Source: Asparagopsis taxiformis
Lineage: Eukaryota > Rhodophyta > Florideophyceae > Bonnemaisoniales > Bonnemaisoniaceae
Length of the DNA: 64,000 bases
NCBI GenBank assembly: GCA_030407315.1
Contig: JALQPE010001878.1
Coordinates: forward strand, 1 to 64,000
Reading direction: 5' to 3'
Shown here: piece after piece, positions 57-41,626 of the stretch
How the letters are laid out: every line of letters begins with the position of its first letter
Position numbering within the stretch: position 1 is the stretch's first letter
The notes under the pieces: generated by a model
Seen by the model: only the letters and a program-made list of their open reading frames with translations
Told to the model about the DNA's origin: nothing
Databases searched by the model: none
Program-made: the position numbers and the translations under genes

Positions 57-189
57 TTGCGACAGGGACGAGATATCATTCAATGAAAGAGAAGTTCTCT
101 TTCGTTTACTTTTTTTCTAACAAGATTCTAAACGTCTACAAACCCTATGTCGTCCGTCCGTTTTCATCCCGGAGAGATGTGGGTGTGAG

Positions 190-826: not shown

Positions 827-1005
827 CCTGATTTGAATTAAAATTTGGGCTATTCTCAAAAACATGCACATGTGAACATGTTTTTGAGATGGGGGTGTGC
901 CGTACGGCACAATCGACCGCCAAATCGATGTTTTTTGCAATATTTTTTCTGCCCGAAATATTACAATTTCTGGGCTGGCCAGCAATGCATCTGAGCTGGA
1001 CATCC
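827..1005 (+). repeat. Repeat R1, left TIR (copy A)
   Basis: One of nine full or nearly full copies of a ~180-bp repeat in the window. The others start or end at 4984 (inverted), 36840, 37196, 41970, 42471, 42856, 44164 and 48322 (inverted). Shared parts are the AT-rich outer end, the hairpin with CATG-containing arms, GCCGTACGGC, and an inner end at CTGAGCTGGACATCC. Confidence 0.85.
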
Positions 1006-1355
1006 CCATGTCCAGTGGCCGTCCGGATGTTGCTCACCTGGTAAGCGTGATGCACCTGTGACAACCTATGTGACTGCAGTCACAGCCGCCATGGCGGCCG
1101 TGCAGTACAACACTCAAAGACAGGGAATCACAATCTTTTTAAACTTTTTCTCTACCACGTATCCGTCACAACTTATTACCTACACCGGTTACGGGTCTCA
1201 AGACCTTTCCAGTGCTGTGCACCCGTACACTCTGTTCCGTTCGATATCAACCAGTGTTCCTCACGAAAGAGTGCAAACGTCACGAGATACGTCGTCAAAT
1301 TTGACTGTCTCGCCGAGCGGTCGCCATCCTGTACCGAATTTCCACTCATTCCATT

Positions 1356-4300
1356 ATGACGAATAAGCGCAGGCGCAACAGCAATCCGATCGTTGACGAC
1401 GCAACCGTGCCAATTCTGCGCGAACCCGCTAGCCCTTGGGAGGATTCTAGTGACATGGGTACACGTCGAAACGTAGGTCGCGCCGCCCGCGAAACTACTC
1501 TCGCTGGCAAAGACTTCCTCCGCCTCTTGCTGGATTTATTCGCCCACTCAAGTTTCGCAGACTTGACGGACAAGCCGGGAGGTTTCACATACGCGGACCT
1601 TGGCGCTTGGGTTGCGCAGGGCACGGAAGAACAATTTGCGGCGCTGCAAGGTCGACTCAGCATGGCCTTCAGCGGTCGTTCGAAGAATGCTGGAGTCGAG
1701 GCAGATGTTGCCGAAATCGTCATGGCAGAGATGAACGTTGAGCGAGCCAAGCAGATTGTTCGTCTGGCATTACCGATTGCCGAGTTTTCAAGACAGGATG
1801 AGCGTATCGGGCAATGGGTTGAGCACTGCATCCTTTCTGGGATCGTGCCGCAGACCTTCCTTATTGGATGTAACATGCTTCCTTCGCCACTACAGGCGCC
1901 GCAGCGCGGGGAACCAAGCGCCTTCGGTCTTGCTCCACCGGAAACGTTCGAGGTATTGATGTATTTCCAAGCGTTGTCTATCATCCGAAATCACAACAAG
2001 AACCTGCCGCGTCGCCGAATAGGCGACGCGGCCGAAGAGGGGAACGAAGCCGCACGCGTCCCAGCCCATCGGAAAAGCACTAATCGAGCTTGTTACGTGG
2101 TTCAAGTTTTATACCATGCTTGGACCGATGTGGCCTTCGCCGCAAAGTTTTCCAGCTTCGAAGAGTTGATGGCGCCGTACATCATTTTCGACAGCAGTGA
2201 GCATTGGTTTGACGTGCTCGATGAAGGTCTATTCGCACCGATGGAGCAGAAGCTAGATCTCTACCACGACAAAGCTCCCCTATCTCATCCTGATGGATAT
2301 GGTGGAAAAGTAGAGACAAGAACCAGTGCGCAGCACAGTGCATTTAGGGACCTTGTGAGGAAGTTCTTCGACCGGTTGCAGTTTCTTATCGTCAACCCGG
2401 ACCTGTACACCTGGCCGGAGTCCGACCGCTGGGGGGCGCTGGAAATATACTTCTCAAGCGGAAATCCGGACAAGCTGCCAGCGTACTTTGACACCCTCGA
2501 CGAAGACGTTATGGCTGTCCTCCGCCCGGCACCACAAGCCGCGGACGCAGAAAAGGTCCCCAAGCCGGTTGATGACACTCCCACTCGTCGCAACACAGGA
2601 GGGAGAGGTTTGGTTCCGTTGACAAGACACACAACCAGGCTTCAACTTGGACCTAGGAGGACCAGTCTTACTGCCCAAGGGCCGTCTCCCCCGTCACCGT
2701 CACCCCATGCGACAGAAGAGCAGGAAAGTGAAGGGCAGGCTCTCGCAAAGGACTTTCTTTCGAAAATGAGTCAGTATTGCCGGGTGTACGACGTCCCTTT
2801 CGAAGATTTGGTCAGTGCCGACGAGAGCCGAGAACACGTGCCCATCACGGGCAACGTTCAGCTCATTCTGACTGATCCGCCTTACAATGTTCGTCGTAAG
2901 AGGAACGATTCCAACTCTTCGTACGACAGGCTAACTGCAGAAGATATGCAGACTAGCATCGAAGTGTTTGACGAGCTGTTGCGCCACGGTGACCACGGCA
3001 TCGTGTTCTGCTCCGTTTTGCAGTTCTACGAATGGTTCCATTACTTGGAAACGTACAAAGGACCGCAGTCAGAAGGCCCAACCGATGCTGCTGCCAGTGA
3101 TGACGGGTCGGATGAAGAAGAGGTTACGTCCATGAATTCGGACTCCGAAGCATCGCAGCACAGTGGCGAAGAAAGTGCGGATGAGGAGGAGGAGGAGGAC
3201 GAGGAGGAGGAGGACGTCGTTCGGAATTCAGTTTTTTTCGTTGACGAGGTACCTCTGTTGTTTGTCCGATTACCTGGGCACCTCTATCAAATGCCGGGGC
3301 GGAAGAGGTACCAACGCATGAACATGGCAGAGGTCGCTATCCACTTCTGGAAGCGAGGTGTTCCGTTCAAGACCGGAAGCGAGATGGTGGCCTATAGGAA
3401 TCACGGATACATGGACGGCACGTACCCGGCGTGGTGCAACGTCACCATCAATATGCCCGCCATCTATTCGAATGAGATGGTGTGGCGAACAAGGAGCACA
3501 ACCGGTGCTACGGTCAGAGTTCGTGCAGAGCAGAAGAGCGTCGCTCTCATGATGGAGTTCATCAGCCAGCATTCACAGCCTGGTGATATTGTTGTCGATT
3601 CATTCTCTGGCACTTTCACAACGGGAAAAGCAGCTATGAGCTTGCCTGAGCACCGTGTTTTCGTCGGCAGTGACATGGACAAATTGTGTGTGGCACGATC
3701 GCTTCCAAAGCTGTGTGCTCTCATGTCACGTGTAATTATTTCAAACAACACTGACATGAGGGTCACGACAGAAGCGAAACAGAGTGCTGAGAAGTTCTTG
3801 GCGTCCCCTCTGTCACGATGCGTACACAGAGGGAACGCAGGATCATCGAACCCCCACCTGGCCTTCCCCTGTACCAGAGGTTCCCGAAATATATTCGGCA
3901 GTACCTCTGGCAGCTGTGCCCAGAGTCGATTGCGTCGCACGAGCACATGGAAAAACCGGTACATTATTGGCCACCTTCCCTGCGCCGCTGGTTGCAAACT
4001 GAAAACCCTCGCGTGATGCGGGCACACGATTGTGTTGCGAAAAAATTGAGCGTTCGACCATCGCTGATTAAGCATCCAAATGCAGGAAGAGGGCTCTTCG
4101 CTGAACAGACATTTAATGTTGGCGACGAAGTATGTGCATACTACGGAACTGTTGTGTACTCTGATATGAGCAAGGAGTCGATGAGGTTCGCGTACGGAGA
4201 GGGTCACATGGCGATAACGAAGGAAACATTCTTGATGTATGCCATCAAGCTGTATGCAACAGCAGAGGACGACGAAAACATCGAGCATCCAATTTGGATT

Positions 4301-4558
4301 GTTCCGGCTCCGTTCTGTTCGGCGCAGTTCATCAACGACCCGCGGTATTTGCGAGGTGAGGACACTCCGGCGGAAGACACCAGGCGGATGGCCAACGTCG
4401 AGTTTGTCGAGAACTACAGCAGCGGTTCGACGGGGAAGAAGCTCAAGGCGAAGGACCTAGAAAATCCGAAGATCATTGTAGTACGTGCAATCCGCGATAT
4501 CCGTCCAGGGCAGGAGCTCTACGTTCATTATGGGACAGCGTTTAGAGCATGGAATTAG
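1356..4558 (+). pseudogene. DNA methyltransferase-SET fusion, copy A (frameshifted)
   Basis: Reading from ATG 1356, this is the same protein as the intact 1067-residue copy at 44693-47896. A run of C is one base shorter near 3807 (CCCCTCTG against CCCCCTCTG), which breaks the frame before the SET domain. The methyltransferase part ends in nonsense sequence at 4016, and the SET part continues in another frame to 4558. DPPYN (motif IV) is kept. Copy A differs at conserved places: the segment after motif IV reads RHGDHG instead of RPGGHG, and motif I reads DSFSGTF instead of DPFSGTF. The gene therefore looks inactivated, unless the frameshift is a sequencing error; the motif changes argue for real decay. 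Confidence 0.85.
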
Positions 4559-4589
4559 GGTCACGAAAGATGTTTTCATTTCGACTACA

Positions 4590-4595
4590 AATAAA
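4590..4595 (+). promoter_or_regulatory. Candidate poly(A) signal
   Basis: AATAAA lies 32 bases after the stop of the methyltransferase-SET gene, inside the element and before its right TIR. The spacing fits a eukaryotic polyadenylation signal. It is conserved at 47928 in copy B. Confidence 0.5.
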
Positions 4596-4803
4596 GCTAC
4601 GTTCCAGAGTTGAAGTATATCATATAATGCAGCATGTCCAGCCACCATTAGTCCAGGGTGAAACCTATTGAGCAGTACTCGCCTGTCAAAAACCAATCGT
4701 TCACACTCTAGGTGCACTTCGTCCGAGCAGTGAACCTGACTGCTTGGTTGCTGTTATGCGTGCAGATGCAAAATACAAGACCAAGTTGAAATGGACGCCC
4801 GGT

Positions 4804-4984
4804 GGATGTCCAGCTCAGTTGCATTGCTGTCCAGCCCAGAAATTCTACAATTCAGGGCAGAAAAAATATTGCAAAAAACATCGATTTCAGCGGGTCGATT
4901 GTGCCGTACGGCACACCCCCATCTCAAAAACATGTTCACATGTGCATGTTTTTGAGAATAGCCCAAATTTTAATTCAAATCAGG
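4804..4984 (-). repeat. Repeat R1, right TIR (copy A)
   Basis: Reverse complement of the repeat at 827-1005, including the hairpin and GCCGTACGGC. It closes the 4.16-kb element. Confidence 0.85.
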
Positions 4985-5216
4985 ACGTCTTCCGGACATA
5001 GGGGTGCTCGCGGCCTAGCTCGACAGCTGTAATTGTACCTCATTAAATACTGTTGATGACTGCCTACCGTATACAATCTGGGCTGTTGGCGTATTCTCCG
5101 GTACTTGACCTGACCTGAACGTTCATCGCAGACCGTTGTGGTTACCGACACTATACAGCAATCTTTTTGTATCTCGTGCAACTCAATCGTTCCATCGCTT
5201 CCGGGAAGGCTTCATT

Positions 5217-7501
5217 ATGCCGCCGCGTATTGCGAAGAAAGCTCCAAAGCCTCCGGGCCTCCAGAAAAACCGGTCAGCAGCTGCTGTATCGAGTGCCCGA
5301 CAATCCCGTGCGAAGAAGCGGTCTGGGCCTACCGGCAGCATTGAACCGCGGTCCGGTAGTCGCAAGACGGACCGGCGCAGAACTGGGGATCCGCAGCGAG
5401 AAAGTGAGGAAGGAGGAACGGCGCGGAGAGAGATGGGGCTTGACCGAGGCAAGCGTGCTCGCAGGGACAGTGAACATCATGATGATGACATGATAGTGGC
5501 TCAAAACATGTTGGAATTGCGGCAGAGTGCTATGGCAAAGGTAGTTCCTCCCGGGTTGGCAGATGCGGAGGTGCTGCAGACGGAGTCCCAGCCGGGGGTT
5601 CGCGAGACACTGGAGGCTGTGACCCCCACTGCGCCAACTATGCCGAGTACATCAGCCCCAGCAGGTAATGCAGTCAGTGACCCGAGGATAGCGGCAAGGG
5701 ATGTTGTTTCTGAGCAACGTTCACAGGATGCCAACTATCATCGGCGGTCAGGTGGTACTGAGGGGAGAGAGCAGCCGGAGTGCGGGCCTCGTCACAACAG
5801 ACTGTCATTGGTGCCAAATATGCGCGTAACGCCCCCGCGACGTCAGGCTATTGCCGATGGAGGACATCATAATCCCGATAGCGTGGGAGATGGGGGGACG
5901 GTGAGGGCAGAGAGGTTGCATCCGCCGGAATCCATCGATTTAATGGCGAGTCGCATCAATGCGCAGAAGAAGAAGATCGCGGAGCTGGAAAAAAGGTGTT
6001 TAGCCAGGACATAGCAAACAAGGCGCTCACCACGGAGATAGTTGCGTTGGAGGCTAAGGTGAAGACTCTGCAGGCGGAAAATGCCAGCCTTACTGCAATT
6101 GCGAGAACAGGTAGAATCAGTGATCACGGTGGCGGTAAGTCGAAAATACAGAGAGCCATTCCTGTGAAATACCTTGGAGTTCTTAGGGCGGTTGAGGAAA
6201 ACCTGACAAAGTGGTGCAAGAACGAGACTATGGAGCTGGACCCTATAGCGGAACAAACGCAGAGACGTTGGACTGGACGTACCATCGAGGTAGAGCCGGT
6301 AGAAGGGACACTTTGGAGCGAAAACGGTGTAGGATATATTGCTACCCCTCCGGGCTATATCATCAAGAATCTGCAGTGGTATACACCTTCGTACAGAGAC
6401 GAGAGTGATCTGCTGAATGACTTGGTGCGACACGTACTGCGTCAAAGTCCGTGGTGTGATGTGTTTTCCGATGAGGAGCAGCGTGTGTGCTGTCAAGAGG
6501 CTGTGGCGGGGAGCAAGGAATTGAAAGTGAAGGTGACGCAGAAACTGTCCGACGTGATGAGTGCACGGAAGCGTAATGCGAGGGACAGATTGTTCGGTTC
6601 GCTGGGGTACACGAAATTAATGTCTAGATGCACGATGCTGACGACGCGAGCTGAGATGGACGAGCGAGAGGATCAAAAGCGCGAAGCGTCTGAGAAGCTT
6701 TTGAAACGGGAAAGCAACGGTGATTTGGATATGGGGAGGTGGCGAACGGCACCGTTCTCAGAGCTGCGATACAGCAAAGGCATGGTTCCTGACAGCTTCG
6801 AAATGGAAGTGAATGGTGATGCATGGTTTAACAACCGAGTAGCTGTGAATGTGCTGGACATCTTCAGGGGTTATTCGATACGACCAGAACAAGTAATGGA
6901 CATAGAGACGAGCATACTAACGCTGGCGCGCCTGGATGCTTGGCTAGTGACTACTGTGGAGTGTTTGGATGAACCGAAGGGGAAAGGAGGTGCACGGCAG
7001 AAGGAGTTTACAAGGAGGTACAGTCAATATGTGGGGGTAGCTTTTCAGCAATTAGTTGGTATGGTGGTGTACTGCATGTCTTGTCTCCAAGGCTCGCAAG
7101 CAAGGGAAGAAACGGACGTTGTCGAGAGCGAACAGCGGACTAGTGCACAGTCACGGCATGTGTTTGCAAGCCGTACTGTGACGAGAGAGGCTGTTGAAGT
7201 GTGGCAAAGCGGAGAGGGGTCTGGAATTGTTCATGTCGTTGATGATGTAAACCGCTGCTCATCACTTGTTCTAGTGTCCGAGGATTGGATTCAATCGCAT
7301 ATTACGTCAAACCTCGGTGCTGTAATGGATTGTGTGATTGCGCAAGGACTAATTGGCGCAGAACTTTTCGTCGTTGACCCATATGCTGGACACCTGAGTG
7401 CAAACCTGAATGTAGAAATCAATGCCCCACAGTATGGGGGCATGGAGCGGCGCCATGCAGCAACTGCTGATAACAGTTTTGGCGTAATGGAGGATGGTTG
7501 A
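5217..7501 (+). CDS. Family-B coiled-coil protein with apparent -1 frameshift
   Basis: I do not recognise a named family. ATG 5217 opens a basic, disordered start (PPRIAKKAPKPPG, RQSRAKKRSG, KRARRDSEHHDDD) that suggests nuclear location. The first frame ends at 6014, inside a coiled coil (RINAQKKKIAELEK). The coiled coil continues in the -1 frame from about 5990 (ALTTEIVALEAKVKTLQAEN) and runs to 7501. The overlap contains an A-run followed by GG; copy B has a perfect A AAA AAG heptamer in the zero frame. The C-terminal part has a module (KVTQKLSDVMSARKRNARD, then LFGSLGY) that resembles the B genes at 24047 and 60387. It faces the transposase gene 77 bases downstream. Function unknown; a DNA-binding partner of the transposase is one guess. 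Confidence 0.6.
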
Positions 7502-7578
7502 AATTAGTGCAGTAAATGTGACGTTGACTAGAAGGCTTATCATGTAGTACATTATCAATAGAGTGCTGCGATTTAGAT

Positions 7579-10500
7579 TTATTCTTCTTCATTATCATCT
7601 GTGAACTGGTAATCAGTGTTGGTGTAGAAGCGGTTGAGATAGAAACGGTGGTCCGACCAGTGCATTTGTTTCGTAAATGGCTTGACTGGAAAGTTACTTC
7701 GTACGATGTGCACGGTGCCAGATATAGTAGATGCAGGAATGAGGTCAAACCAAGGACCACCTGCACTGTGGGATGCAGTGTCATTGCTGTCAACGGATCC
7801 GTTGTCCGGGTCCCATGTGGACCACTTTAAACAAATGCACCCAAGTGATTTTTCCACAGCGGTTTTTGGGGCAAAGCAGGTCATATACTGAACGAAAGCG
7901 AGTTCTAAAGGTTGAAACAGGTTTGGAGACTGCAGGCGTACCAGTGCCAGGACGCGCCCTACCCATATGGTTCTGTAGTCATCGGCAGTTCCGGAGATGA
8001 CGACAAAGGAGTACTGCGATCTCTTTGCGGGGCCGAATGATGAAGTTGCAAAGACGCGCTGCTGCTTGTGCCTCGACACGTTTGTGGGGCGAAGCATGCC
8101 ACTGTGCGGGTCAAAGTCGTCGGCATCTGGGACGTACCCTCCCATGACGTAGGCGGACTTTACCGCGGTGACGGAAATGTCCATGTCATGTATTGGAGGG
8201 CCTTCTGCCGTGGCGCGCAGTCTAGCGAGGGTGAGGAACGCTTGTGCAGCTGTGTCACCGAGTTGCTGGAATAGCGTTATGGTGCCAGACGGGAACGAGG
8301 AGTTGTGCAGAGGCAAAAGAGTGGCAGGATCGGGCTGTCCGTCGATATCTGCAACGAGGAGTGTTGCATCGGGCAGCAGGGAGGCAAAGTCGTGCAGTGC
8401 AACGGTGAATCCGTCGCGAACGAGTACTGCACCGTCTGTGGGCGATATCATGCGTGGGTTTCCCAATGTGTCCGATGGGGTGTGACCAGTTGGAGTGGCC
8501 AAGGAGAATTCCATGTGGCGAATAGTCTCTTCCATGGCTGTGGAGCGCCTTCGAGAGGTTTTCCTCTAACTCTGTTTGAACAGAAGATGCGAGTGTTCGT
8601 AGGGGCCTGTATCAATGTGTTCCAGGGCGCCATATCTCTGCAAGTCACCGGGAAGATGGTCAAGAAGATGGAACTTGAAAGTTTTGAGACCTGTGGTGTG
8701 GAATGGGCCGAGGGTGGAGAGCATTGATTGTTTGAAATAGGAAATGGAGTTCTGGAGGCTTTCGAGTTCGGCGGCAGTCCAGTGCTTGATGCGACCGCGT
8801 TTCATGACCCATGCAACGAGGTCAGAGTATTGCGTGCAGATGGAAGTGAGGGGGGCTGTCTCTACTTCGTCACAGCATGTGTCAATGAATGCTGCGATGA
8901 AAGGAACACCATGTCGACATGGTGATAGTCTTTGGCTGCGAGCATGCCGCGTATGCCGTCCTCCGTGAAGAGGCCGTTCAAATTGGTGCCCTTCTCACCC
9001 TTGGAGAAGTCGACATGAAGACCGGTGATGTAGTAGTCGCGTTCGATAGCGGACAGAATGCTGTTTGAGCCGGCGAGGATGGATTTTTTGACCTTCTTGA
9101 AGGTGCGAGGTGTCCCGGAACGGGAGGCAGTGGTGGTGGTGAGGTTTGGGGAGCTGAGGCGGTGGACAATGCACTGTTTGATGAGCTTTGAGATGCCGAG
9201 GTGGAGATTGTGCAGAGGCTCGAAGGAGAAAATTTTGTAGGGGTCTAGGGGACTGTTGCTGGTAAAAGAGCGGTCGATTCGAGGACAGAATGTTGTTCGA
9301 GGAGGGAGAGAGCTTCGAGCGGAGCAGTTGTATGCTCCTGAGCGCTCTCTTGGCGTGCAGAGCGTGTATCATCGAGGGAGCGGGGCTGGTGTGGCGCGGT
9401 GGATTCAAGTTTAGTGGCGGGGATGTAGCAGCGGTGGCAGGGATGTGTGGTGGTAGTGCTGTTGCGAGTGCATGACAGCTCTTTGGCCTCTGGAAAGTCG
9501 CAGCAATAATTGGCTAGGATGGGAAAGCATTGGCGGGCAGTTGCAGTGGAGTCTGTGCAGGGGAAACCGGAGGAGAACGCATTGGATAGGGACGAAAACA
9601 CTTTTTCGAGTGCTTTATGAAGAATATCAATTTTGCGAGCGCGACTAGCAGAACTAGAGGTTGTCGGCATTTCATCACCGAACAAAGCGTTGGACGAAGG
9701 GTTAACAATGTACGGAAGATACCCGACGATGGTGAGGCCGGTACGGATGCAGTGGCGACGGAGGGGGGCGGAGAAGTTGAGCAGTGTGACGTGTATGGGG
9801 TATGCGACGATTGCGGAGCTCTTGAGGCTTGTGCTGCTCTTGTCGGAGTACACTTGGAGGAGGCCGGCAAAGGAGGAAGGGGTGGGATCAGTTTCCTCTG
9901 CCCATACGACCTGTGGATCTTCCGAGAGCTGCACGCGCTGTCTAGTAACCTGGTGCAGCGTTTTCGCGAATTCTGTGTGTAGGGGATGAGAAAATATTGC
10001 GGTGCCGTCTGGGGCGGTCTGTGGGTAGGGGTGGAAGAGAGTATTTTGGTCGTTAGCCATTGCTAACTGCCTGCAGAGCATGTCGACTGGGTCGCGGAGG
10101 TACAGCTGTGCCGAGTACTTACCAGTTTTGTCTGGAATGATGTGGCTCTTGTAACCTTCGGTGCGGAAATGTGTTTCGACCATGGAAGCGGTAACGTGGC
10201 GACATTCTTCTACGGTGCGAACGGCGCTGTTGAACTTTTCTAGGGAGAATGCGGGGTCTTGTAGGATGGTGATGACTTCGCTCACGCGGCCAGCGCCGGC
10301 CTTGTACTCGAGGGTTGTGAGACTGGCGGCGAGGGATTGCACGAGGAGGTCTGCGCGGGAGGGGGTTGAGGTTGGTGGCAGTGGAGCGTCACAGGGTGAG
10401 TCGCTGGAGGAAGCACGACCAGATTCTGGGTCTGGGGAGCTGGGTTGCGGGGAATCATGGTCGCCGTTTCGAGCAGGCTCATGGGTGACGGCAGGGACAC

Positions 10501-10618
10501 GAGCGTTGTTGAAATGTTGGGGAGAGGGGTTGAAACGGTAGCGACACGTTCGCTCATGCAGCGCGAGCGCATAAGCATCTACGCAGTAGTAGAAGCACCC
10601 TTCATACTTGCATTCCAT
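7579..10618 (-). pseudogene. KDZ/Plavaka-like transposase, copy A (broken)
   Basis: ATG at 10618 starts a C2HC-type zinc finger (CKYEGC ... HERTC). It is followed by a disordered Ser/Pro region and a transposase core of the Plavaka/KDZ type: YSDKSST, AYPIHVTLLN, IVGYLPYI, then CDFPEAKELSC and a CHRCYIP zinc knuckle. Further on come HNLHLGISKLIKQ, KFHLLDHLPGDLQRYG, and a C-terminal domain with IWVGRVLALVR ending near 7579. These short motifs match in order what I know of Plavaka transposases. Breaks in this copy: a one-base loss near 9257 (GGTAAAAG, GGGTAAAAG in copy B), a frameshift near 8920 shared with copy B, and a TAG at 8565-8567 where copy B has TAT. It is probably inactive as it stands. 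It converges on the family-B gene. Confidence 0.8.
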
Positions 10619-10619
10619 G

Positions 10620-11215
10620 TCGAGTTTTGACGCAAAAGGGAGGATTGCGAGCTGAACAGGGGAGACTGTGCCGTCCAGATGCGACCAATTTTATTTTTGT
10701 GGTGCTTTCGAGACTTGGAATGTAACGTGTTCGTAGTTTTGTGGGTAGTAGTTTTGTGCTCACTCCAGCTGACATCCCAACGGTGGAATTTAACCGAGAG
10801 TTCAATCATTTCCAACTGTTACATCACATTGCGTGCTGGCAACGTGTGCATGGAAGGACGAACGACTGCCTGGGACATGAATTTTCAATTAATTCATTTG
10901 TAATAATAAACTTTTTTATTTCCGAACTTCGTGGAATCTGAATGTGCTTTACAGCGGATATGCCACGGATCATGTAAGGAAAGCAAATGGATTCTCATAT
11001 ACATGATTATATGTTTATATTCGTTGTTCTCGATCCGGATCTCATTGTTTGGGGATTCAGAGACCATGGCTTGGGCCATACTCAATCTCACTGCCGGCGA
11101 TGATTTCGAGTATGCACAGCAAGACTTAAGCGGACGCTGAAAGCTGTCCGGTCGACGCCGCAGGCTCCACTCCGCCCTCATCACCGACTGAGATTCTTTG
11201 ACGGCCTTTACTTTG
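10620..11215. other. Non-coding stretch behind the transposase start
   Basis: No convincing gene. It contains the upstream region of the minus-strand transposase and an A/T-rich patch near 10900-10925 (AATAATAAAC). Short frames on both strands show no recognisable motif. Confidence 0.5.
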
Positions 11216-11700
11216 TTTAGTGTAGAGGATGGACGAAGGTACGTGCGCGAATCTTGAGGGTATGCATTGAGGGAAGCGTGGGTTTTGAGTCTGACTATTT
11301 TCGTTGAGGCGATATTTTTCATTGGAAGCCTGTTGACTCATGGTGTGTATTGAGCGGAGGATGGAAGAGAGGTACGTGAAGTTTTGAAAGTATGCTGCGA
11401 GGGAAGGTTGGTTTTGAGTCTGACTGTTGTGGTTGATTCCGATGTTGTGTAGATGATGCAGGAATGGTGATGACGGAAGGTAAGTTTCACTGAGCACCAA
11501 GACTTTTTTGCGAAGATATGGACTGCTGACTTTGATTATTCATTGCAAGGTTTTTGCATCATGGTTTGTACTGTGTGTAGGATGGATGAGAGGTAAGTAA
11601 GGGAGTTTCTAGGATATCTGTCGTGGTAAGCGTTGCTTTTGAATCTGACTGTTGGGGTTGATGTTTTGTATGTGATGCAGGAGTGGTGAAGCAGGAACGG
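11215..11700 (+). repeat. Degenerate tandem repeat with splice-like motifs
   Basis: At least three imperfect units share the order TGTGTAG / GATGGA(T/A)GA(A)GAG / GT(A/AC)GTG, then GAGTCTGACT and GTTGATG, at about 11219, 11345 and 11570. Each short GATGGA block sits between an AG and a GTACGTG or GTAAGT, like micro-exons between 3' and 5' splice sites. On the minus strand the units give repeating peptides (NSQTQN ... SSILRSIHT). Whether it is transcribed is unknown. Conserved at 54557-55042 in copy B. Confidence 0.5.
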
Positions 11701-12041
11701 CAGGACTCAAGGAGAGTGAAGAAGGGATCTAGGAAGATGGGGAATGAAGCTGTGAGGTGTTTCTGGTATGTGTATATTTTCGAGCATACCATAGAAGTGA
11801 GAGTGGGTTTCAGGTGGTGTAAGATTTTGCTGACCATGTTCGTGTTTGATGTCTTGATGATTTAATGGGCTGGGGTGGTGTCGAGGAAAGCGGGGATGGA
11901 ATTGGGAAGGAGCGGATTTTTGTAATCTAGGTCGTGAGGGTTCTTGAAGTATGTGCGGATGGTGGTGCATGGCGTTCGGATGGTAGGGAGAACGCGATAT
12001 TGAGGGAGATGGGTGATCGACGATATGCTGACAGGTATTTT

Positions 12042-12172
12042 GTATTCTGGCTGGATACGTATTTCGTATTCTGGCTGGATACATATTCCGTATTCTGGCT
12101 GGATACGTATTTCCTATTCTAACCGGGTATTTATTTCCTATTCTGACCAGATATGTATTTCCTATTCTAGAG
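12042..12172 (+). repeat. 24-bp minisatellite, about 5.5 units
   Basis: Units begin at 12042, 12066, 12090, 12114, 12138 and 12162, of the form GTATTCTGGCTGGATACG plus TATTTC. The first three are nearly identical and the last three drift. Both strands stay open through it, so short frames here are repeat artefacts. Same in copy B at 55384-55514. Confidence 0.85.
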
Positions 12173-12292
12173 AGACGTATTGTATACGAGCAGTTTCGTA
12201 AATGAGAGAATAAAATACGGTCCGATATGGGCCCTGAATTTACCATCCGCTGTAATTTCTTCCCTCCCGGTTTTCGCTGATATATTGTATAC

Positions 12293-12379
12293 TGGATGTC
12301 GGGTCCTAGGATCCCGCTGTATGTACTAGAGAAAGTGGATGTCGGGCCCTAGTATTCCGCCATATGTACTAGAGAAAGT
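12293..12379 (+). repeat. Two ~43-bp direct repeats
   Basis: Two adjacent units, each TGGATGTCGGG(T/C)CCTAG... ending ATGTACTAGAGAAAG. They resemble the CTAGTA/GGACGTCC repeats at 34.88-35.16 kb by the second transposase, and are probably part of a transposon's subterminal region. Confidence 0.75.
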
Positions 12380-12380
12380 G

Positions 12381-12513
12381 GACGTCCGCATCCAAAAAAT
12401 TTTTATTTTTTTTGGACGCGGACGTTCATTTGTTCTAGTAAATCTCGGGGCCGACTAGGACCCGTACTAGAGAGACTGGACGTCCGCGTCCACTTCCGAA
12501 AACACAGACGTTA
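12381..12513. repeat. Subterminal palindrome, GGACGTCC-type
   Basis: GTGGACGTCCGCATCC and GGACGCGGACGTTCA face each other across an A/T-rich centre. CTAGTA and ACTAGAGAGACTGGACGTCC follow. The same vocabulary occurs at 1-56 and 34880-35165, each time near a KDZ-like transposase, which suggests binding sites or element ends. Confidence 0.6.
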
Positions 12514-13194: not shown

Positions 13195-13199
13195 TTACT

Positions 13200-14237: not shown

Positions 14238-14355
14238 AAATTTGGTAATTTTTTGGGCTCTAAAATTACTGCAGTAAAAACTGATCTAGCAAAGTGCACT
14301 TGACTAGATCAGTTTTTACTGCAGTAATTTTTGAGCCCAAAAAATTACCAAATTT
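14238..14355. repeat. 118-bp palindrome, left end of element II
   Basis: Arms read AAATTTGGTAATTTTTTGGG ... inverted, then ATTACTGCAGTAAAAACTG and inverted back. The 28-bp apex (14283-14310) is the exact reverse complement of the apex of the palindrome at 23164-23281 (23209-23236). The two are thus one sequence in inverted orientation. Confidence 0.85.
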
Positions 14356-14810
14356 CACGCCCCTTCTTGTACTCTCTTCACGACTGTTCATTGGGTACTG
14401 ATTGATTTGAACGCAACCAGTGAGTCTTTTGGCGCGTGGGCGCGAATTTATTCGCACCCCTTTAGTTGACCTTCCAAATGTTACGTCTACACGATTTCCT
14501 GTCACTCTCCTCTGCTACTCATCTACTACTCCCTGTAGTACTCCAGCACCTCAAAGGCAATTCAGATCGTGCATCTCCCTGCTTCAGCCCAACTCCCCCT
14601 GCTTTCCAAGCTTCGCTCTTCGCATCTCTCTCTGCTTCTCCCGCTTTGCATCCATCTGTCTCCCCACAGTGACAGTGTCCCATCCCTCTCTCTCTCTTCA
14701 ATCCTTGCTCTCCCGTGCCCTCTCTTTCTCTTCACTCCCTGCCCTTTCGTGCCTACTTCACCTCTATACACCGTTCAGAGTTCAAGAGCTTGTTTATCCC
14801 ACCCACAAAC

Positions 14811-25717: not shown

Positions 25718-25843
25718 AACTGTTCTAGGTGGAACACCGCCGTCTTCATGTGACTGTAGTAGTTCCCATTGCTTGCCTCTGCTCCGCAATGTATGCTTCA
25801 GTATAATTAAACTAGTTCTTCCATGTTCATCTCACTACCTGTA

Positions 25844-27538
25844 TCATTTTATGTACTCCTCTGCCCTTTTCTCTGACACACTATACCCCACCACATCATT
25901 GACCACATCTTCCGATATTAACTTGCCTATTCTACACGGTTCTTCCACACCACGGAATACGACATACGGCATATGAACTCTCAATGTTCCCCACAACATG
26001 TCACCAGCCCTTCCTCTTTTCCTTTGCGTCGTAGGTTCCCATTCAATGCGGAAACATTTCTTTCTTTCGCTTCTCCACCCTTCTAGACTCCCGTCACCAT
26101 CGAACCCCCCGTGCACGGCACATATCGAGGGACATTCCTGCAGCTCCATTCCATTCACATATTCACCTTGGACTACAGTACTACCGTTGCGAGCTAGACA
26201 CCATACGTTCGATTTAGATCCGGCAATGCAGAACGAGCTACTGCCAATTGCAACAGATGTCGACTGTGCTTCCATCGTTTCCGAGCACAATATCGTACCA
26301 AACAACCGCAGAGCACATGGCCTCGCTGTTCCGTTCATGTCACCACACTCTTCATTCTCCTCCCCTTCCGAGTTGCTTATGTTACGCCTGTGAACCAGAG
26401 ACTCAGTTCGCCATCTGTGCCCCAATCCTAGCAGATCCGATAGTGTTGAAAACTTGGAACACGTAATGTTCACAGCTTCTCCGCCATTTCCAGCCACTGC
26501 CGCGTGAAGCCCTGGGTACACTTTGTAATACCCCCCTCGATAGGTTTCTGCTGTTCCCTTTAGCATTTCCCGGAATAGCTCAGTGCTCAATGAGATTGGA
26601 ATCTGCACAGGTCCGCTAATAGCCGTTCCACTCGTGCAAGCACCGTCAATCTCACCATGTGGGTAGCCACCCCCTGGGGTGGACAAAGTGCTTCGATTAA
26701 CCTGTTACACAACTTTCTCTACCGCACGCTGCAAGAGCATTAACAAAACCTTACCAGCCGATACTGTTGATCCACAATTTAGAACCCTTTCGTTCCAACC
26801 AAGCCGAATCTCGCTAGCATTTCCAGAAAGCATTATATTTTCTAGTGTTCTCAGCCTTGTCTCCATACCTCTGTATGTTTTGACGTCAAGTGCTGATTCC
26901 ACTTTTTGCTTCTTCCTCTGCGGTGATATCGCTTCAGATTCTCCATCTGATTGGTCATGACATTCTACTCTCTCCGCGTTGTAATCCACAGCCTCTCCAT
27001 TGCTCGTTCGCCACGGTGTCGGGGGCTGGCCCCCCGACATCAACTTATTTCCGAGCAGAAACTTTACGTTTTCGTAGGCGACACAATGATAATTCATTTC
27101 AGGAATAGCATCGTATAACAACCTGCCTTCTGCCACTGCCCTTTCATTATGACTCGGCCTCACAGCGTCCGAATGCCGCCACGTAGTCACTTCCAAGACT
27201 GAAATCTCCTTTTCCTCCCTCGTCAACCTCACGATTGCATCATCCACATCATTTCCATTCTGCTCCACCACACCAGGCGTGTACATTCCATCTCCTCTGT
27301 CTACATCGATACGGTCTCCCACTGACGGCTTACCACTGCAGACAGGATACTGATCAGGAAGTTTCATTTCCACAACCGTAGCCTTCCACCATATTGCGTC
27401 ATCGCCAACTTGGAACCATACGTCTATTTCCGTTCCGACACATGGAAGTGCATCTACGGCAGCTGCCCGCTCACGCTCACGACCAGCTTTCGCTTTTTCG
27501 CTCTGTCGCCTAATTCGCAATGATTCACGCCTAGTCAT
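25844..27538 (-). pseudogene. Family-D Tudor-like protein (one in-frame TAA)
   Basis: ATG 27538 starts a very basic front (MTRRESLRIRRQSEKAKAG). EIDVWFQVGDDAIWWKATVV follows, which resembles the small beta-barrel of Tudor/Agenet-like readers, and then a PQRKKQKVE nuclear signal. The frame stops with TAA at 26705-26707, and the same frame goes on from QVNRSTLSTPGGG to 25844. The second half matches the intact gene at 62188-63549: TSVAIGSSSF parallels SSAFLVGSSAY, and DMLWGTLRVHMPYVVFRG parallels ETFGTLHLRLPCCIFSG. The name is tentative; the function, perhaps reading a histone mark, is inferred from the N-terminal pattern only. Confidence 0.55.
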
Positions 27539-34600: not shown

Positions 34601-35073
34601 TCATCCGAGTCGGAAGCATCCAATTGTGTGTTATCACGCCACGCAAGGTCGAATATATGTGGTGCAGTAATGTCTGCTCGTGCGTATTCGCTTGGTGGAA
34701 CGATAAGTACAGGTGCTGATTGACTAGCTTTGTTTTGTTCGACCTTGCTTCTTCGTAGAATTGCAGAAGAGGCAACACGAGCTGCACTACGCTCTGCGTT
34801 TACATGGAAGTATACGGTTTCCGAACGCAACCATGCGTTGAAGAACAGCCACGGTCTTCGTCTGTGTTCTCGGAAATGGACGCGGACGTCCACAACCTCT
34901 AGTACACCTAGTATTACTAGGCGGACGTCCATGTTCTCCAGTATTTTTGGATGTCCGCCTAGAGCCGGACGTCCATGTGGTCCAGTACGTCTAGTATTAC
35001 TAGGACGACATTCATTTTTTCTAGTACCACGGATGTCCCCCTCGGGATGGACTTCCGCCATGTCTAGGTCCAC
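31611..35073 (-). pseudogene. Second KDZ-like transposase (broken)
   Basis: Three pieces read right to left. 35073-34087 includes YARADITAPHIFDLAWRD. A frame change follows at ~34090-34175. Then comes a core with YVYPFLLYCDDFNE, GPGVSTNHILRHISRDI, FVSDYPACSHVLDVMG and the CPCHLCFF knuckle. An in-frame TAA sits at 33405-33407, and the same frame continues with RLLNEARFKGLV and DPYRSTFVGIDHLLHGL to 31611. The D-rich LLYCDDF and the DYPA...CPCHLC order fit the RNase-H-like KDZ superfamily, but this protein differs clearly from the Plavaka-like one. Its true start is uncertain because 34880-35073 is repeat sequence. It is probably inactive. Confidence 0.65.
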
Positions 35074-35165
35074 CTAGGACGGGCGCCGGTTCAGAAATTC
35101 AAAAATTTCGAGCCCAGAAATTTCTGCCGCCGTGCTCGACATGGATGTCCGCATCCATCACGGCG
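34880..35165. repeat. GGACGTCC / CTAGTA subterminal repeats
   Basis: Repeated blocks of (G)GACGTCCA, CTAGTATTACTAGG and GGATGTCCGC in both orientations, most densely at 34880-35060, overlap the start of the transposase frame. They match the repeats at 12.29-12.51 kb next to the other transposase. Likely an element end. Confidence 0.65.
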
Positions 35166-35169
35166 ACCA

Positions 35170-36180
35170 CTCTATTTTTCCTTGTCGGTCGACTCCAATT
35201 TCGTCTTTAATTTTTTTATCCTCTCGCTCACACCCCCTTCCAGTTGGTGCCCACCTCCCCCGTACTGTACCTCAAACACCCCCAATACCACTCTAGCACG
35301 CATTTTCAGCTACCTATCCCCGTTTCCACGGTGCACACCTCCATTCCATACCTACTTTTCTGCTCTACCGTACAGATTTCGTATAACCAGTCCTCATACT
35401 ACCTCAGAATAGGGAAAAACACCCCCTATATCCTCGACCATGCTCTCCCCCATCACCTTTGCAACGTATTGTTCTTCAATACCCTCTCTCCTCTACCTTC
35501 AACCCCTCTCCTTCGCCCTCTCCACAAACTTCCCCTGCAGCTTACTCTTCGAAAACCTCTCACTCCCCATCCCGTACCCAACCTGCTCCACCCCTCCCTC
35601 CCTCAGCTGCTCCATGCCCCCCACGCCATCCACATCTTCGATACCGTATACAGCACCACCACCGGCCCACGCTCCCGCTCCCCCGCCGTCTCCCCAGAAA
35701 CCTCCCCGCTCTGAACCACATATCAACCCCCCACTTCGCACCCTTCCTCCCACTCCCCTCCCTCCCCAAATACAATAACCCCCTTCTTCTCCATCACATC
35801 CCCACTCACCATAGCCAGAACAGACGCCACCCCCCTTCCCGCCTCTTTTTCCTCACTTTCCTAAAAACCCCTCCTCTCGGCGCCTTCAACCGCACCCTCC
35901 TACGGCCCCACCTAAACACCTCCTCCACTCTCACTACCCCAACACCCCGCAGCGTCTCCCCAATCCCCATAATATGCTCGTCGGCACTCCTCTCCGAATC
36001 ACACTCCAATCTAAACCCGCACTCCGTACATTTCCACTTCCCCCTGTACCATCCATAGATTCCATCCCCCCACAGAACACATCCTCATACCACAGAACAA
36101 TTTTCTTCCTCTCATACCTTATCCTTAAAACCTCCATCTGCTCCATGTAAATTTCGATGTAAATATTTTCTCCACTATGC
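35170..36180 (+). other. C-rich, pyrimidine-skewed stretch
   Basis: About 1 kb in which the plus strand is dominated by C and T. Long open frames in several phases are Pro/Ser/Leu-rich low-complexity shadows (for example 35459-36058) without domains. I see no gene. Confidence 0.6.
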
Positions 36181-36512
36181 AATCTCAAACATGTACGAGC
36201 CTATGACTTTCCGCTTTGTCAACCCTGAATATTGGTACTCATGTATTCATAAAATAGGGCCACCCACATCCCTATCCCGTTCTGCAAGCTTTACAAACCA
36301 CCAGACGCATACTCCACAACTATACAACAAACACTACTCGCTATTTCAGACGACGCGGTACACAAGTAGCGTAGTCTCAACCTTCCGTGCAGCCTTCCCT
36401 GATGCGTACAAGTGCGAAACACGTCTAGACTACTACTACTACTACGATATAGTATATCAGAAGTGACTGCGGGAATTTTCGGCACAGGAGATGCTGGGTC
36501 ACCAAATTGATT

Positions 36513-37405
36513 TTTCGGAAATTTTAGAATTTCTGGGCTGGCCAGCAGTGCAATCGAGCTGGACATCCACCGGACGTCCATTTCAGGTTGGTCGTGAGAG
36601 AGTGGGGCGGGACCATGATGAAACAAGGACCAAGACCTGTCCCTGGCGTATTGAGCCTGAAATCGACCCGTCGTGAGACGCGATTTTGGCTTACAGTTGG
36701 TGCTTATAGAAGCCAGTGATAGCCCCGATCGGGGCGGCGGCCGGTTCCGGCTTACAGTTGGTGCTTACAGACGCCAGTGATAGCCCCCGATCGGGGCGGC
36801 GGCTCCGGTTCCTGGGGCCGTTGTGGCCAAATTAGACACCCTGATTTGAATTAAAATTTGGGCTATTCTCAAAAACATGCACATGTGAACATGTTTTTGA
36901 GATGGGGGTGTGCCGTACGGCACAATCGACCGCCCAAATCGATGTTTTTGCAATATTTTTTGCCCGAAATTTAGAATTTCTGGGCTGGCCAGCAGTGCAA
37001 TCGAGCTGGACATCCACCGACGTCCATTTCAGGTTGGTCGTGCGGGACCATGATGGAACATGTCCCTGACGTGTTGAGCCTGAAATCGACCCTCGTTAGG
37101 CGCCATTTAGCCTTACAGTTAGTGCTTACAGAAGCCAGTGACAACCCCTCGGGGCGGCGGCCGGTTCCTGGGGCCGTTGTGGCCAAATTAGACACCCTGA
37201 TTTGAATTAAAATTTGGGCTATTCTCAAAAACATGCACATGTGAACATGTTTTTGAGATGGGGGTGTGCCGTACGGCACAATCGACCGCCCAAATCGATG
37301 TTTTTTGCAATATTTTTTCTGCCCGAAATATTACAATTTCTGGTCTGGCCAGCAATGCACCTGAGCTGGACATCCACCGGACGTCCATTTCAGGTTGATC
37401 GTGTA
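36513..37405 (+). repeat. Tandem array of R1 units, left of the dioxygenase gene
   Basis: One partial unit (36513-36839) and two units starting CCTGATTTG at 36840 and 37196 (356-bp spacing). Each is the R1 repeat (~180 bp) plus a linker with GGTTGGTCGTG, CAGTTAGTGCTTACAGA-like and GGGGCGGCGGCCGGT parts. Same orientation as the array at 41970. Confidence 0.85.
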
Positions 37406-37671
37406 TCGTGCACGTCCACACATTACCGGAAGCAAGTAGGCGATGAAGCACGTACAAACCCAATTGTTCTGCTATTTCTACCATAGACCATCGAGTCTAG
37501 AGATGTGAGGGAATCGTCCTGGAAATCATGCTCCAACCCACGAGGGAATGGACAATCTAGTTTGAAAGCATGGAACGGAAGTACATTATACTAGGTTCAT
37601 AGATTGAAAGTGAGAAAGGAGATGATTATATTCTCGATAATTGTTTACCAAAGTAGTAGTTGTTAAGCTAT

Positions 37672-40600
37672 CTAGCCGTTGGAAAATTGTTCTTCCTCTT
37701 CGTCCTCATCATATTCAGGATCTCCCGGCAGAATAGGCGTTATCGGCAACCGTGGAGTTGATCTGCTCAAGATGAATTCTTCACCCGCTGTGAGGGTTCT
37801 CTTCTTGGGAGCTTCTGTCGTCTTCATCCGCATGATTCCGAGCTGCCCTGTCTTCGGCCTACGATCTTTCTTGACCGGGATGGGAACAACTGTCTTGTGG
37901 CGAACGTTGACAGGTGCCGGTTGACTTTGCCTGGCAGACCGGCGCGGAGCATTGGCGATTACTTCTTCTTCGAATCCCAACCGCCTGATGAAACCAAACG
38001 AAACATTGTCGGGAATCGGATACGACGCATTCCTGAAATACGTGTGATACCTCGTTGTCGTGTGTGACACAACTCTGTCGACATGCCCTGCCCCGGCATG
38101 TTGTACATGGCCGTGACCGATGAAGACTGAACGTGGCGGAACGATTACCTTCTTCAGCTTCATCGTCTTGGCGTACATATCTAATTCCAGCGCTTTGGAA
38201 AAGACGTACTTGTGGGACCCTGGACACACCCAGATAGGGAATGGGTCATCTCCGTTGGCAATAACAAAGTAACCCGGAAGTTGATCTTTGCGGTCGCGAG
38301 GAGGAACAGGGAAATCATTGTGTGGGACCTGCCGAGGACACCCCTTTCCCGTTATCAAAAACCGTCCCCCAGATGCCGGCATGACAAGTTTTTCTCCCGG
38401 TAAACCGCACTCCTCCAGCCCTATCAGCCGGACAAGGATTCCCAACCACACATCCAGCAGGGCTCGCCGCGTCACAAACTTGAACCGGTCGATATGCGTC
38501 TCATCGTTCTCGGCATAGTCAACCAGGCAGTGGCGCGTAGACGTGAAGCGAGCCCTCCCCTCATTCCGGTTCTTCTCATCTGTTTCATCGTCCCCGTATT
38601 GACAATGGGACTCCACAGCTGCCGGTTCCCAGGGTCCTTGTGCACCTGCTCCCCCTCCCATGTTCCCAAGAAGTACCGAAACAATTCCTGGTTAGGAATT
38701 TCTTCCATGAGACCCAAGTCAAATGGGAACTTGTCCGACGCATCGAGGTAGCTTACATCCGCGAAATTGTGCATCACCGTATACCCTCGCTCGTTGATTT
38801 CCGTTCGGCAATTGTGGAAGTACGCCATACCAGTGCCGGCCTCATACGAATCCTTCCAGCTTGTAGACATTCGCGCAACCTGAGCGAAGTCCAGCCTCGA
38901 GGGTAGAAACGTCGATGTAGGCTCACACATCGCCTTGGCAGCCATCTTCCACGCTGCGAAAAACATCGGATAGATGGTGTCGATCTCGAAAACAAGATGA
39001 CGAGCCCGATGTTGTTCCGGAATATGCAGCCCCTCAAACACAGGGTCCATCGCCACTTGCTTCAAATACCTCACCTCTCTGCCCTCCTCATCGATTTCCA
39101 CACTCTCCAATAACAACCTGAGCTCAATCGGGGGCAGACAGCCAACCCTCACCGATGCGATGACGTCCGCGGGACGCTGCGCCAGATGATGCCCTTCGGC
39201 TCGGTCTTTGACTTCGAAATCGTCGGGAAGAGATGGCATACGGTCGTCGAACAGGAGGTCGTGTTCAGAAGGAGAGTCACGAACGATGTAACCGTCTTCA
39301 TCGACTTCGACTCCTTCCGGAACAGTGAGTGTAATTGTCACTTCGCGGACCCCCTTGCTTTTGACATGGCCCTCGTCTGCACTGTTGTTTTCTTCCTCGT
39401 CCGAAGCGGTATGGACAGATTCTTGGTTGGAGGGAGTCGCACCAGCACGTTGGTTATCTTGGGGGACAATCTCAACGGCAGAATCGGGGGAACGGGCGGA
39501 GTCTTCGTCACCCTCATCACCGGAAACAGTGGCTTGTTGTTGATCGGTGGGTTTATCAACAACGGCCTGCTCTTCTTCCCCGGCGGATTGTTGTACCACA
39601 ACCGGCTCTTCTTCCTCGAGGCGTGTGCTCCCCGTCGAGCGAAGTCGCTGTGAACGGCGGCGGATGCCATGCGAAGCAGGCTCATGTTCGACATTCCGCT
39701 GCTTCTTGTGAGTGAGTCTCACATTGGCAGCAGAAGGGCGGCGTTTGCGTCGAGCCTTAGTCTTCTTCTTCAATGTCGGATTGAAAAACTCTTTCAAGTT
39801 CGTTTCCAAATCCTGTAAACGCGTGGTTCTCCGTCGCATTCGAACCTCACTGCTCCGGTCGTCCCCTCTATACATTGCAATGGCATTGGTGAGATGCCAT
39901 TGCAACTCCTTCGGCTGCTTAACCGACCCAATTGCCATCTCTGTGCTCAGAAATGACTTGCGCATAATACTCTTTGGGCGCCCAAACGCAGCGTACAGAG
40001 AATTTGCTATTGCAGTCACGCGACGGACGTATGTATAGAAGTCGTTCACGTCAAAGCGTCCATCCGGACGTCCACCATGAGCAGGGTTCAAGTACTCCGA
40101 AAGACCACGCAAGACGAAGACAAAGTTTTCTTCCAGCAACTCGCGCACTATCTTGTGGTCCAGGTGCGTTATCCCAATCTCGTTGCGGCGCTCGGAATTG
40201 TTCAGCTCACGCAACACTTCGTCGAGAACAGGATGCTTCAGCGTTGCTATAGCCAAACGCGTCCACCGCCGGGCCGTGTTCGTTGAATTCATCATCCCCA
40301 TGAACTGCGCCTCGAACAATGTTCGGATGACATCAGACTCACGCAAGTCGCCAGCGTTTTCCACGTTATTTGCAACAGCAATCGTACGGATGAACTGCTG
40401 GATGGACGACAAGATTCGAACCAGGGAGCGCTCCGTCAGTTGCGTCCCAGTCGTATGGTTCGACTCTGCACTCTTGTGGATGATCTCATGAGGCTGAAGA
40501 TCACTGTCGTCCTTGCGGCGAAGGTAGTACACATCCAGAGGCTGAGTAACCCAGCGCAAGCGGTTTGCGTCCTGTGGCAGCTTGGTTCTGTGCATACGGG

Positions 40601-41626
40601 TGAGGCGCGTGAAGTCATCGGCAATGCTATGCATAGCATTGAGACGATGCAGTCCGTCGATCACGGTCACGTTCGCATTGGCATGGAATTTGCCATTCTG
40701 GAACAGACGCGTGTCGGCGGACAGATGCGTGTTCTGCGACCTCAGCACCGTCACAGTGATACGCGAAGAGCTCACATACCCCACAGCCAACATATTGTTG
40801 CGCAGGTCCTCCACGTGGTCTTCTTTCACATCCCGAAGGGTCACGGCCGGTTCCACTAGCTGCCTCACCAACACAGTCGCTCCTTCTCCGACGTAATCCG
40901 ACGTCACAAACTTGGGCACCGTAATTTGCGTCCCCTGCTGCTCACGAATGCTTTCCGCCACCTCCGGTTCGTCGTCCACCTCGGTTACGTCCTGCGTAGT
41001 AGCTTCGGTGACGTTGGAGCGAGCAGGGTGCTTCGTGCCTCCACTGGAGGGTCTTGCAGAGCGAGCAGGGCGCTTCGTGCCTCCCGAAACCGGACGGAGC
41101 GTGCTGGATGCTTCGTACCCCCCGAACCAGTGATTTCGCCTGCTGGACCGGTACTGGGCATCCGTCCCGAGCTGGCCTGGTTCGTCGCTGCGTTGAAGTT
41201 TGACGCTGCAGCAGGGGTACGAATGTCGCTAGGGCCATCCTCCGCAGCGGGGCGCATCATCCGAGTATCCCAAGGGTAAAACGCCGCGGCGTATGCTCCA
41301 CCCATCGTCTCCGGCGGTCCCTCGGCGCCATCAAACATGTACGGGAACGGGAGGTCCTTGAACTTGTCCTTAGTCGCAATGTTGCGCACGACGATATAGT
41401 CCGCCTCGTCGGTTTCCGGCAGCTTGTGGTTGTGCAGCGTGCGCGGAAGGCCAACATCGCCACCAGCAGTGCTCACCGAAGCCGTCCCAATATGCACAGC
41501 CGCACCGTCCACGTCCGCAAACAAGTCGACATCGACGCCGCGCTTGAGTCCGCGCGACTCCGCTGACGCGCTCACTTGATCGCCGCAAACCGTTGAAAAC
41601 AAACTGCTGAAATGCGTATCCGCCAT
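37672..41626 (-). pseudogene. ParB-like / 2OG-Fe(II) dioxygenase fusion, type I (frameshifted)
   Basis: ATG 41626 (MADTHFSSLFSTVCGD) gives ~1300 residues over three frames. The first changes near 41090, in a triplicated GGCACGAAGC-type stretch. The second frame (to ~38555) holds the ParB-like region with VIDGLHRLNAM (DGLHR at 40644-40658), a basic linker (KKKTKARRKRRPS) and an acidic region. The frame changes again in a G-run near 38555. The third frame carries the dioxygenase: QVPHNDF (H-x-D at 38314-38322), VCPGSHKYVF, and HVQHAGAGH (distal His near 38099). It has no zinc cluster, unlike the gene at 14811. The alignment NERGYTVMHNFADV to FDGYIVLEDVLGA shows common descent. Tandem R1 arrays flank it. 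Broken as read, or wrongly assembled at two repeats. Confidence 0.75.

Follow-up and report, generated by a model that had tools for sequence, protein, structure and literature searches.

Fungal transposons of the Plavaka family carry genes for TET/JBP dioxygenases (PMC12730594), and the Plavaka giant repeats of Amoebidium are intron-poor gene clusters of up to 50 kb, with database matches that include red algae (PMC11244446), as given in the accessible parts of these two reports. In bdelloid rotifers, the accessible part of PMC8885841 describes a captured PF01555 methyltransferase, N4CMT, that deposits N4-methylcytosine (4mC) on transposons and whose presumed partner is a SET-domain protein, SETDB1, in animals from which C5-methyltransferases are absent. 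Here we analyze a 64,000-nucleotide stretch of the genome of the red alga Asparagopsis taxiformis (henceforth the window), which forms the start of contig C1754 (196,862 bases) in an assembly of 141.5 Mb and 3,156 contigs. It contains a 21-kb unit, the R-type element, which very probably combines inverted ends, a Plavaka-type transposase, a gene fusing a DNA methyltransferase to a SET domain (MTase-SET) and a divergently oriented gene for a ParB-like/dioxygenase-like protein (ParB-dioxygenase). A second family of repeated units, the P-type, bears diverged versions of the same two genes. We somewhat favor the view, from the predicted proteins and their arrangement, that these are red-algal DNA transposons equipped with their own chromatin-control genes, comprising a self-encoded writer and a candidate eraser.

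The likeness to the fungal elements lies in the Plavaka-family transposase and in a gene for a DNA mark being carried as cargo. However, the red-algal element gives no Tet_JBP match, has a ParB-like region, adds the MTase-SET, and terminates in CGTCTGTG...CACAGACG rather than in the TGT..ACA or CATCA..TGATG by which the accessible text of PMC12730594 defines PlavakaA and PlavakaB. With the Amoebidium repeats it shares a large intron-poor gene cluster beside a Plavaka transposase, but the cargo named in the available portion of PMC11244446 consists of tyrosine recombinases, and neither MTase-SET nor ParB-dioxygenase is mentioned in that portion. Like the bdelloid system, it features a bacterial-type permuted PF01555 enzyme fused to a chromatin domain in a setting without detected C5-methyltransferases; yet N4CMT, in the part of PMC8885841 that was available, is a host gene with a chromodomain, whereas here a transposon gene is fused directly to SET. 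Certain phage proteins (loci L073 and L078) place a ParB-like region before an N6/N4 methyltransferase, an arrangement also suggested in two homologs of our methyltransferase (P0010 and P0011), but they come from prokaryotic viruses and have no SET match. SETMAR likewise ties a SET domain to a DNA transposon, though as a product of host domestication and not as transposon cargo. Our best reading, by analogy, is that the red-algal system would work like the fungal TET/JBP transposons and the bdelloid 4mC system, yet it matches neither the TET/JBP profile nor the termini of PlavakaA or PlavakaB. No title or abstract opening describing this pair of genes was found in a literature search, beyond whose reach most subscription papers lay.

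The R-type element is laid out as follows, with protein lengths in amino acids (aa).

34859..55852: R-type element of 20,994 bp that includes a Plavaka-family transposase and both modifier genes and shares its ends with other copies
34859..34892, + strand: left terminal inverted repeat (TIR), starting CGTCTGTG
36837..37375, + strand: R1 array of two copies, downstream of the ParB-dioxygenase gene
37672..41626, - strand: R-type ParB-dioxygenase gene; frame-broken in the window, open in L055 (1367 aa) and L056 (1366 aa)
41967..43021, + strand: R1 array of three copies, separating the ParB-dioxygenase gene from the divergent MTase-SET gene
44163..44342, + strand: R1 copy upstream of the MTase-SET gene
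44693..47896, + strand: R-type MTase-SET gene, 1067 aa, open; PF01555 at 57.2 bits, PF00856 at 29.6 bits
48142..48323, - strand: inverted R1 copy upstream of the next gene, a 265-aa open reading frame (ORF)
48556..50839, + strand: two ORFs without assigned function (265 aa in C1706, and 501 aa), also in C1706 and C221
50917..53961, - strand: Plavaka transposase with a broken frame in the window and an open one of 1013 aa in L039; window pieces 96-100%
55819..55852, - strand: right TIR, finishing CACAGACG; 34 bp, two mismatches against the left one
57..12510: second R-type element copy, lacking its left part; the end of another element lies before it at 1-56

Both ends recur outside the window with differing flanks: the left end in four other copies (C2192, C2648, C2609 and C578), and the right end in these four and in C1706, C221 and C430, the last with merely nine flank bases visible. 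The right end at 55852 was located by reading outward in C1706 and C221 to their common end. In C1706, a frame-broken ParB-dioxygenase gene, the MTase-SET, the two ORFs, the transposase and the right end are contiguous (L037, L013 and L038), the copy being truncated on its left at the position equivalent to 36385. The transposase matches the Plavaka profile PF18759 with 86 bits in L039 (cut-off 26.3) and 80.7 bits for window positions 9245-10618. Positions 1-56 are the right end of yet another R-type element, inserted at the position equivalent to 43390/43391; since uninterrupted copies have TA at the 56/57 junction where the element ends in CG, the terminal CG is part of the element. With a 19.5-kb DNA query, a single candidate was scored. 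To the left, 31611-34858 is occupied by reverse-strand frames (ORFs 31611-33323, 33405-34175 and 34087-35073) with no Pfam matches, into which the R-type element seems to have inserted. A 16-kb direct duplication (57-16138 versus 43391-59480; 99.6% identity, 43-kb period) covers one R-type element end and the start of a P-type unit, and is possibly a segmental duplication or an assembly effect. The MTase-SET copy at 1356 belongs to this duplication, and its interpretation as a second independent insertion was rejected.

The two modifier genes recur together well beyond the window. We assessed their linkage with a script that took the places of each gene from genome match lists and derived expectations from uniform placement. 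The lists hold 43 of 4,134 candidates for the R-type MTase-SET, 49 of 3,836 for the P-type MTase-SET, 54 of 2,713 for the R-type ParB-dioxygenase and 38 of 9,228 for its P-type counterpart, so that the pairing counts are lower bounds. The P-type figures follow the merging of gene pieces (50 to 49 MTase-SET rows and 47 to 38 ParB-dioxygenase rows); the ten best SET rows, which are not R-type, were left out, and the broken 1356 copy was added. Of the 54 listed places of the R-type ParB-dioxygenase, at least nine are on the same contig as one of 168 R-type MTase-SET or SET places, against 1.5 expected, and all nine pairs are divergent and within 12 kb. For the P-type, at least 17 of the 38 listed places are paired with one of the 49 MTase-SET places (0.3 expected), all 17 within 12 kb on the same strand and 16 with the ParB-dioxygenase first; this count takes in C561 (99.98% identity to the window), possibly a case of one locus assembled twice. 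Once the window's own pairs are set aside, the listed places that are paired number 8 of 53 for the R-type and 16 of 37 for the P-type. Cross-type pairs among the listed places amount to one in 54 (0.45 expected) and none in 38 (1.1 expected). No listed partner was present for 45 of the 54 R-type and 21 of the 38 P-type ParB-dioxygenase places. On inspection, two P-type MTase-SET genes without a listed partner proved to have one, namely a frame-broken ParB-dioxygenase upstream in C465 and a divergent one in C2079 that is 53% identical to the P-type protein P0002. The genome-wide linkage that an initial, sequence-only reading of the window had put forward as its test is thus borne out among the listed places. 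Its proposal of two element types, each with both genes, holds as regards the existence of two families and their recurrence outside the window, but the R-type proves to be one element and not two that share terminal repeats.

That reading had taken R1 for the TIR of a 4.2-kb MTase-SET element. We rejected this, R1 being an intergenic repeat inside the 21-kb element: six of the seven copies outside the window (L010-L013, L015 and L016) have the same sequence on the outer side of each R1, and in L009 one R1 leads directly to the end with the ParB-dioxygenase (L014 corresponds to the window). A 31-mer of R1 has 7,360 genomic sites with up to two mismatches, against none for the reversed control. 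The unit measures about 180 bp, with most columns at least 95% conserved across 51 aligned rows, which were chosen by up to five mismatches to a 31-mer and, owing to overlapping loci, count a few copies twice. It contains an inverted repeat with 13-bp arms and a 16-bp palindrome, TGTGCCGTACGGCACA. None of 300 shuffles equaled R1 in palindrome coverage, and none of 300 the palindromic repeat of the P-type unit, while the longest palindrome arm was matched by one of 300 shuffles for R1 and nine of 300 for the P palindrome. R1 lies 344 bp upstream of the ParB-dioxygenase gene, 351 bp upstream of the MTase-SET and about 234 bp upstream of the 265-aa gene, a position that would suit an operator or promoter role; that it might be bound by the ParB-like protein is a guess.

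The second family is represented in the window by the following features.

14238..14357: palindromic repeat preceding the P-type ParB-dioxygenase gene
14811..18359, + strand: P-type ParB-dioxygenase gene, matched by the R-type protein in both regions
19501..22972, + strand: P-type MTase-SET gene, divided in the window between two overlapping frames; open 1203-aa frames elsewhere
23162..23281: palindromic repeat downstream of the P-type MTase-SET, inside the repeated unit
23654..23816: further palindromic repeat, upstream of a 443-aa ORF
24386..27273: two more P-type ORFs, one of 443 aa on the + strand (size range 403-443 aa), the other on the - strand, split here and of 475 aa in C635 (about 475 aa)

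The palindromes at 14238 and 23281 had been interpreted as the ends of an element spanning 14238-23281, which had to be abandoned: the repeated unit extends past them and past the palindrome at 23654, with all eight loci L029-L036 continuing to at least 24421, the limit of the DNA compared. In C635 the unit reaches 27273 and is followed by sequence resembling window positions 59471-59961. Outer ends of the P-type unit were looked for and not found, and its ORFs, in their window versions, gave no Pfam matches above cut-off. The retention of the pair in both families, and a P family with no recognized transposase, would fit a model in which the target of regulation or licensing, by DNA methylation and by the ParB-like protein, is the transposition reaction and not expression; however, R1 is internal and not at the ends, and SET has no obvious role in the reaction, so that we regard such a function in the transposition machinery as quite improbable. 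Several other repeats were observed in the window. An inverted 505-bp pair (13765-14269 and 18630-19134; 91.9%), which bears P palindrome arms and has a further copy at 57107-57611, looks like a short non-autonomous element. A palindromic repeat at 31265-31320 has the core ACTGCAGT, the same as the P palindrome, and one at 59504-59688 has a core of its own. Positions 59480-63549 form a repeated region with ORFs at 60555-61472 and 62188-63549, of which 59480-63275 is found at 97.5% next to a P-type MTase-SET in C693.

All three methyltransferase genes of the window match PF01555 (53.8-57.2 bits; cut-off 26.7), and the SET profile PF00856 scores 29.6 bits for the gene at 44693, 26.2 bits for the P-type gene and 33.5 bits for the copy at 1356 (cut-off 22.4). 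The MTase-SET genes initially proposed at 1356, 19501 and 44693 are accordingly upheld as to their domains, though the copy at 1356 is frame-broken, with its SET in a different frame (3818-4558). A DPPY motif precedes the S-adenosylmethionine-binding motif, which places the enzyme in the permuted N6/N4 amino-methyltransferase class, and the named relatives are mostly adenine methyltransferases, such as CcrM (below the curated cut-off) and DpnA (0.0066). We consider both methyltransferase and SET activities likely from these motifs and profiles. R-type and P-type proteins share 24-28% of their residues, and all 43 listed genome matches of the R-type MTase-SET are full length without stops, in a listing that favors intact copies. 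The existence of a second MTase-SET subfamily is suggested by several R-type SET places whose frames measure about 1154 aa instead of 1084 aa. Pyropia yezoensis is the sole named-organism relative of the fusion (one of nine matches); in the genome studied here, 11 of 13 phycobiliprotein matches fall on contig C469, taken as a red-algal plastid genome. The DGxHR box is a mark of the ParB/Srx-fold N-terminal domain. Among the homologs, P0010 and P0011 have an N-terminal DGAHR box and match phrog_1033 weakly (0.014 and 0.093), whereas P0007 and the R-type protein P0001 gave no ParB matches. In profile comparisons, the N-terminal region of P0010/P0011 aligned to the ParB region of the ParB-dioxygenase with an E-value of 2.7e-4 (42% probability), weakening to 0.015 (3%) when four methyltransferase proteins were used and to 0.35 (0.2%) for the P-type N-terminus alone. 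Two of the five scanned among 55 loci of phage relatives, L073 and L078, are ParB_N-PF01555 fusions. The methyltransferase may therefore have descended from a ParB-methyltransferase fusion.

The ParB-dioxygenase proteins P0017 (R-type, 1317 aa) and P0002 (P-type, 1214 aa) are 24% identical overall and match each other in the C-terminal region (E 1e-18) and in the ParB-like region (E 5e-7). Across the R and P sequences compared, the C-terminal region retains an H-x-D motif and, farther along, SH, a distal H and a subsequent R. The 2-oxoglutarate-Fe(II) oxygenases, with their double-stranded beta-helix, are expected to display an HxD...H...R pattern, and these conserved residues are the sole basis on which we call the region a candidate dioxygenase. 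A Tet_JBP-type eraser was rejected, as PF12851 found no match in P0002, P0016 or P0017 up to an E-value of 10. The ParB region matches phrog_1033 at 7.8e-5 in P0016 and 0.005 in P0002. P0017 has no homologs at E <= 0.001, and P0002 has one, P0016; no ParB-dioxygenase was found in viral contigs. The genes initially reported at 14811 and 37672 are indeed there, as are ParB-dioxygenase fragments at 28499-29303 and within 57107-59480, but the gene at 37672 is frame-broken, and of the domain calls SET exceeds its cut-off while ParB is weakly supported and the dioxygenase has no supporting profile match.

Both families keep the pair at 24-28% protein identity, and for this reason the association of MTase-SET with ParB-dioxygenase looks old and has probably been useful for long. 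Present copies of the R-type MTase-SET differ at only 1 to 8 of 1,067 codons in five comparisons, with a nonsynonymous rate (dN) of zero in four. For the P-type MTase-SET, the ratio of dN to the synonymous rate (dS) is 0.20 in all four comparisons, in which the partners are nearly one sequence, and pieces of the P-type ParB-dioxygenase give 0.16 and 0.08 at a dS of about 2 or higher. The P-type pair is thus constrained, while the dN/dS values make a weaker case for the R-type ParB-dioxygenase.

Several observations weigh against transposons with their own writer and eraser. The dioxygenase has neither a Pfam nor a PDB profile match and no relevant NCBIfam match, and the structure model of its region is unusable (predicted local distance difference test score, pLDDT, 29.5). 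The ParB region has no Pfam match, P0017 no PHROG match, and the ParB-region model (pLDDT 40.5) no Foldseek match at E <= 0.001. No transposase was recognized by Pfam among the window versions of the P-type ORFs, and in two of the four inspected P-type MTase-SET copies (C693 and C1982) the upstream stretch of about 5.5 kb contains no ParB-dioxygenase. Plavaka transposons make target-site duplications of 2-3 bp; one of 2 bp fits two of the five two-ended copies (TT on both sides in the window and C578), and the flanks of C2192, C2648 and C2609 show no such match. Finally, two comparisons put the dN/dS of the R-type ParB-dioxygenase at about 0.5; a short out-of-frame tail is included in one of them. 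This value, along with the broken frames of several window copies, would fit genes captured once and merely carried along. Nevertheless, we hold such passive carriage to be very improbable: both genes are kept despite deep divergence, P-type dN/dS is 0.08-0.20, and every R-type MTase-SET match in the aforementioned listing is open.

With regard to function, we propose that the MTase-SET would methylate the DNA of the element, N6-methyladenine being a likelier product than 4mC, as well as a lysine, in a histone or elsewhere. The ParB-like protein, for which the repeats might serve as a guide, would reverse or oxidize the mark of the MTase-SET or a host mark, and the two proteins would jointly set the element's own expression state. 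That this writer and eraser act on the element itself is a tentative proposal. A six-frame genome search for the C5-methyltransferase domain PF00145, which an intron-split gene could escape, found no matches, although the same search was positive for 10 of 14 control genomes, all of them prokaryotic. We thus observe a 141.5-Mb, transposon-rich eukaryote without any PF00145 match. Tet_JBP also has no matches in the genome, a weak negative since the control genomes likewise have none. If C5-methylation is absent, the candidate oxygenase would more likely act on N-methylated bases or methyl-lysine, and with no C5-methyltransferase found a fungal-style eraser of 5-methylcytosine (5mC) becomes less likely.

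These observations bear on two further explanations. As proposed for the fungal TET/JBP transposons, including Plavaka, whose dioxygenase genes the accessible part of PMC12730594 reads as a means of escaping silencing, the pair could be anti-silencing cargo, with the oxygenase stripping host marks and the MTase-SET writing a permissive one. The many near-identical copies do suggest recent success, but the substrate of the fungal enzymes is possibly missing here and the proteins lack a Tet_JBP match, leaving this explanation rather doubtful. Alternatively, the MTase-SET could lay silent-chromatin marks on the element and thereby spare the host, condensing the loop of bdelloid N4CMT and SETDB1 into one mobile protein. 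The bdelloid precedent described above supports such self-restraint; however, the encoder here is a transposon and not the host, and its copy number is high, and we deem it unlikely. Returning to the proposed writer and eraser, a bolder version builds on the recognition of parS by bacterial ParB: a ParB-like module derived from phage ParB-methyltransferase fusions would read R1 or the P palindrome as ParB does parS and deliver DNA methyltransferase, SET and oxygenase activities that toggle a non-5mC mark. Such a mobile, self-addressing epigenetic switch is a speculative extrapolation by analogy and, on balance, improbable.

Transposons encoding erasers are already known from fungi; in the red-algal elements, a DNA writer and a writer for histone or other lysines would reside in one protein, accompanied by a candidate eraser. 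With these elements one could test directly if mobile DNA is able to determine its own chromatin state, and they suggest one way in which bacterial base-modification enzymes may enter eukaryotic epigenetics.

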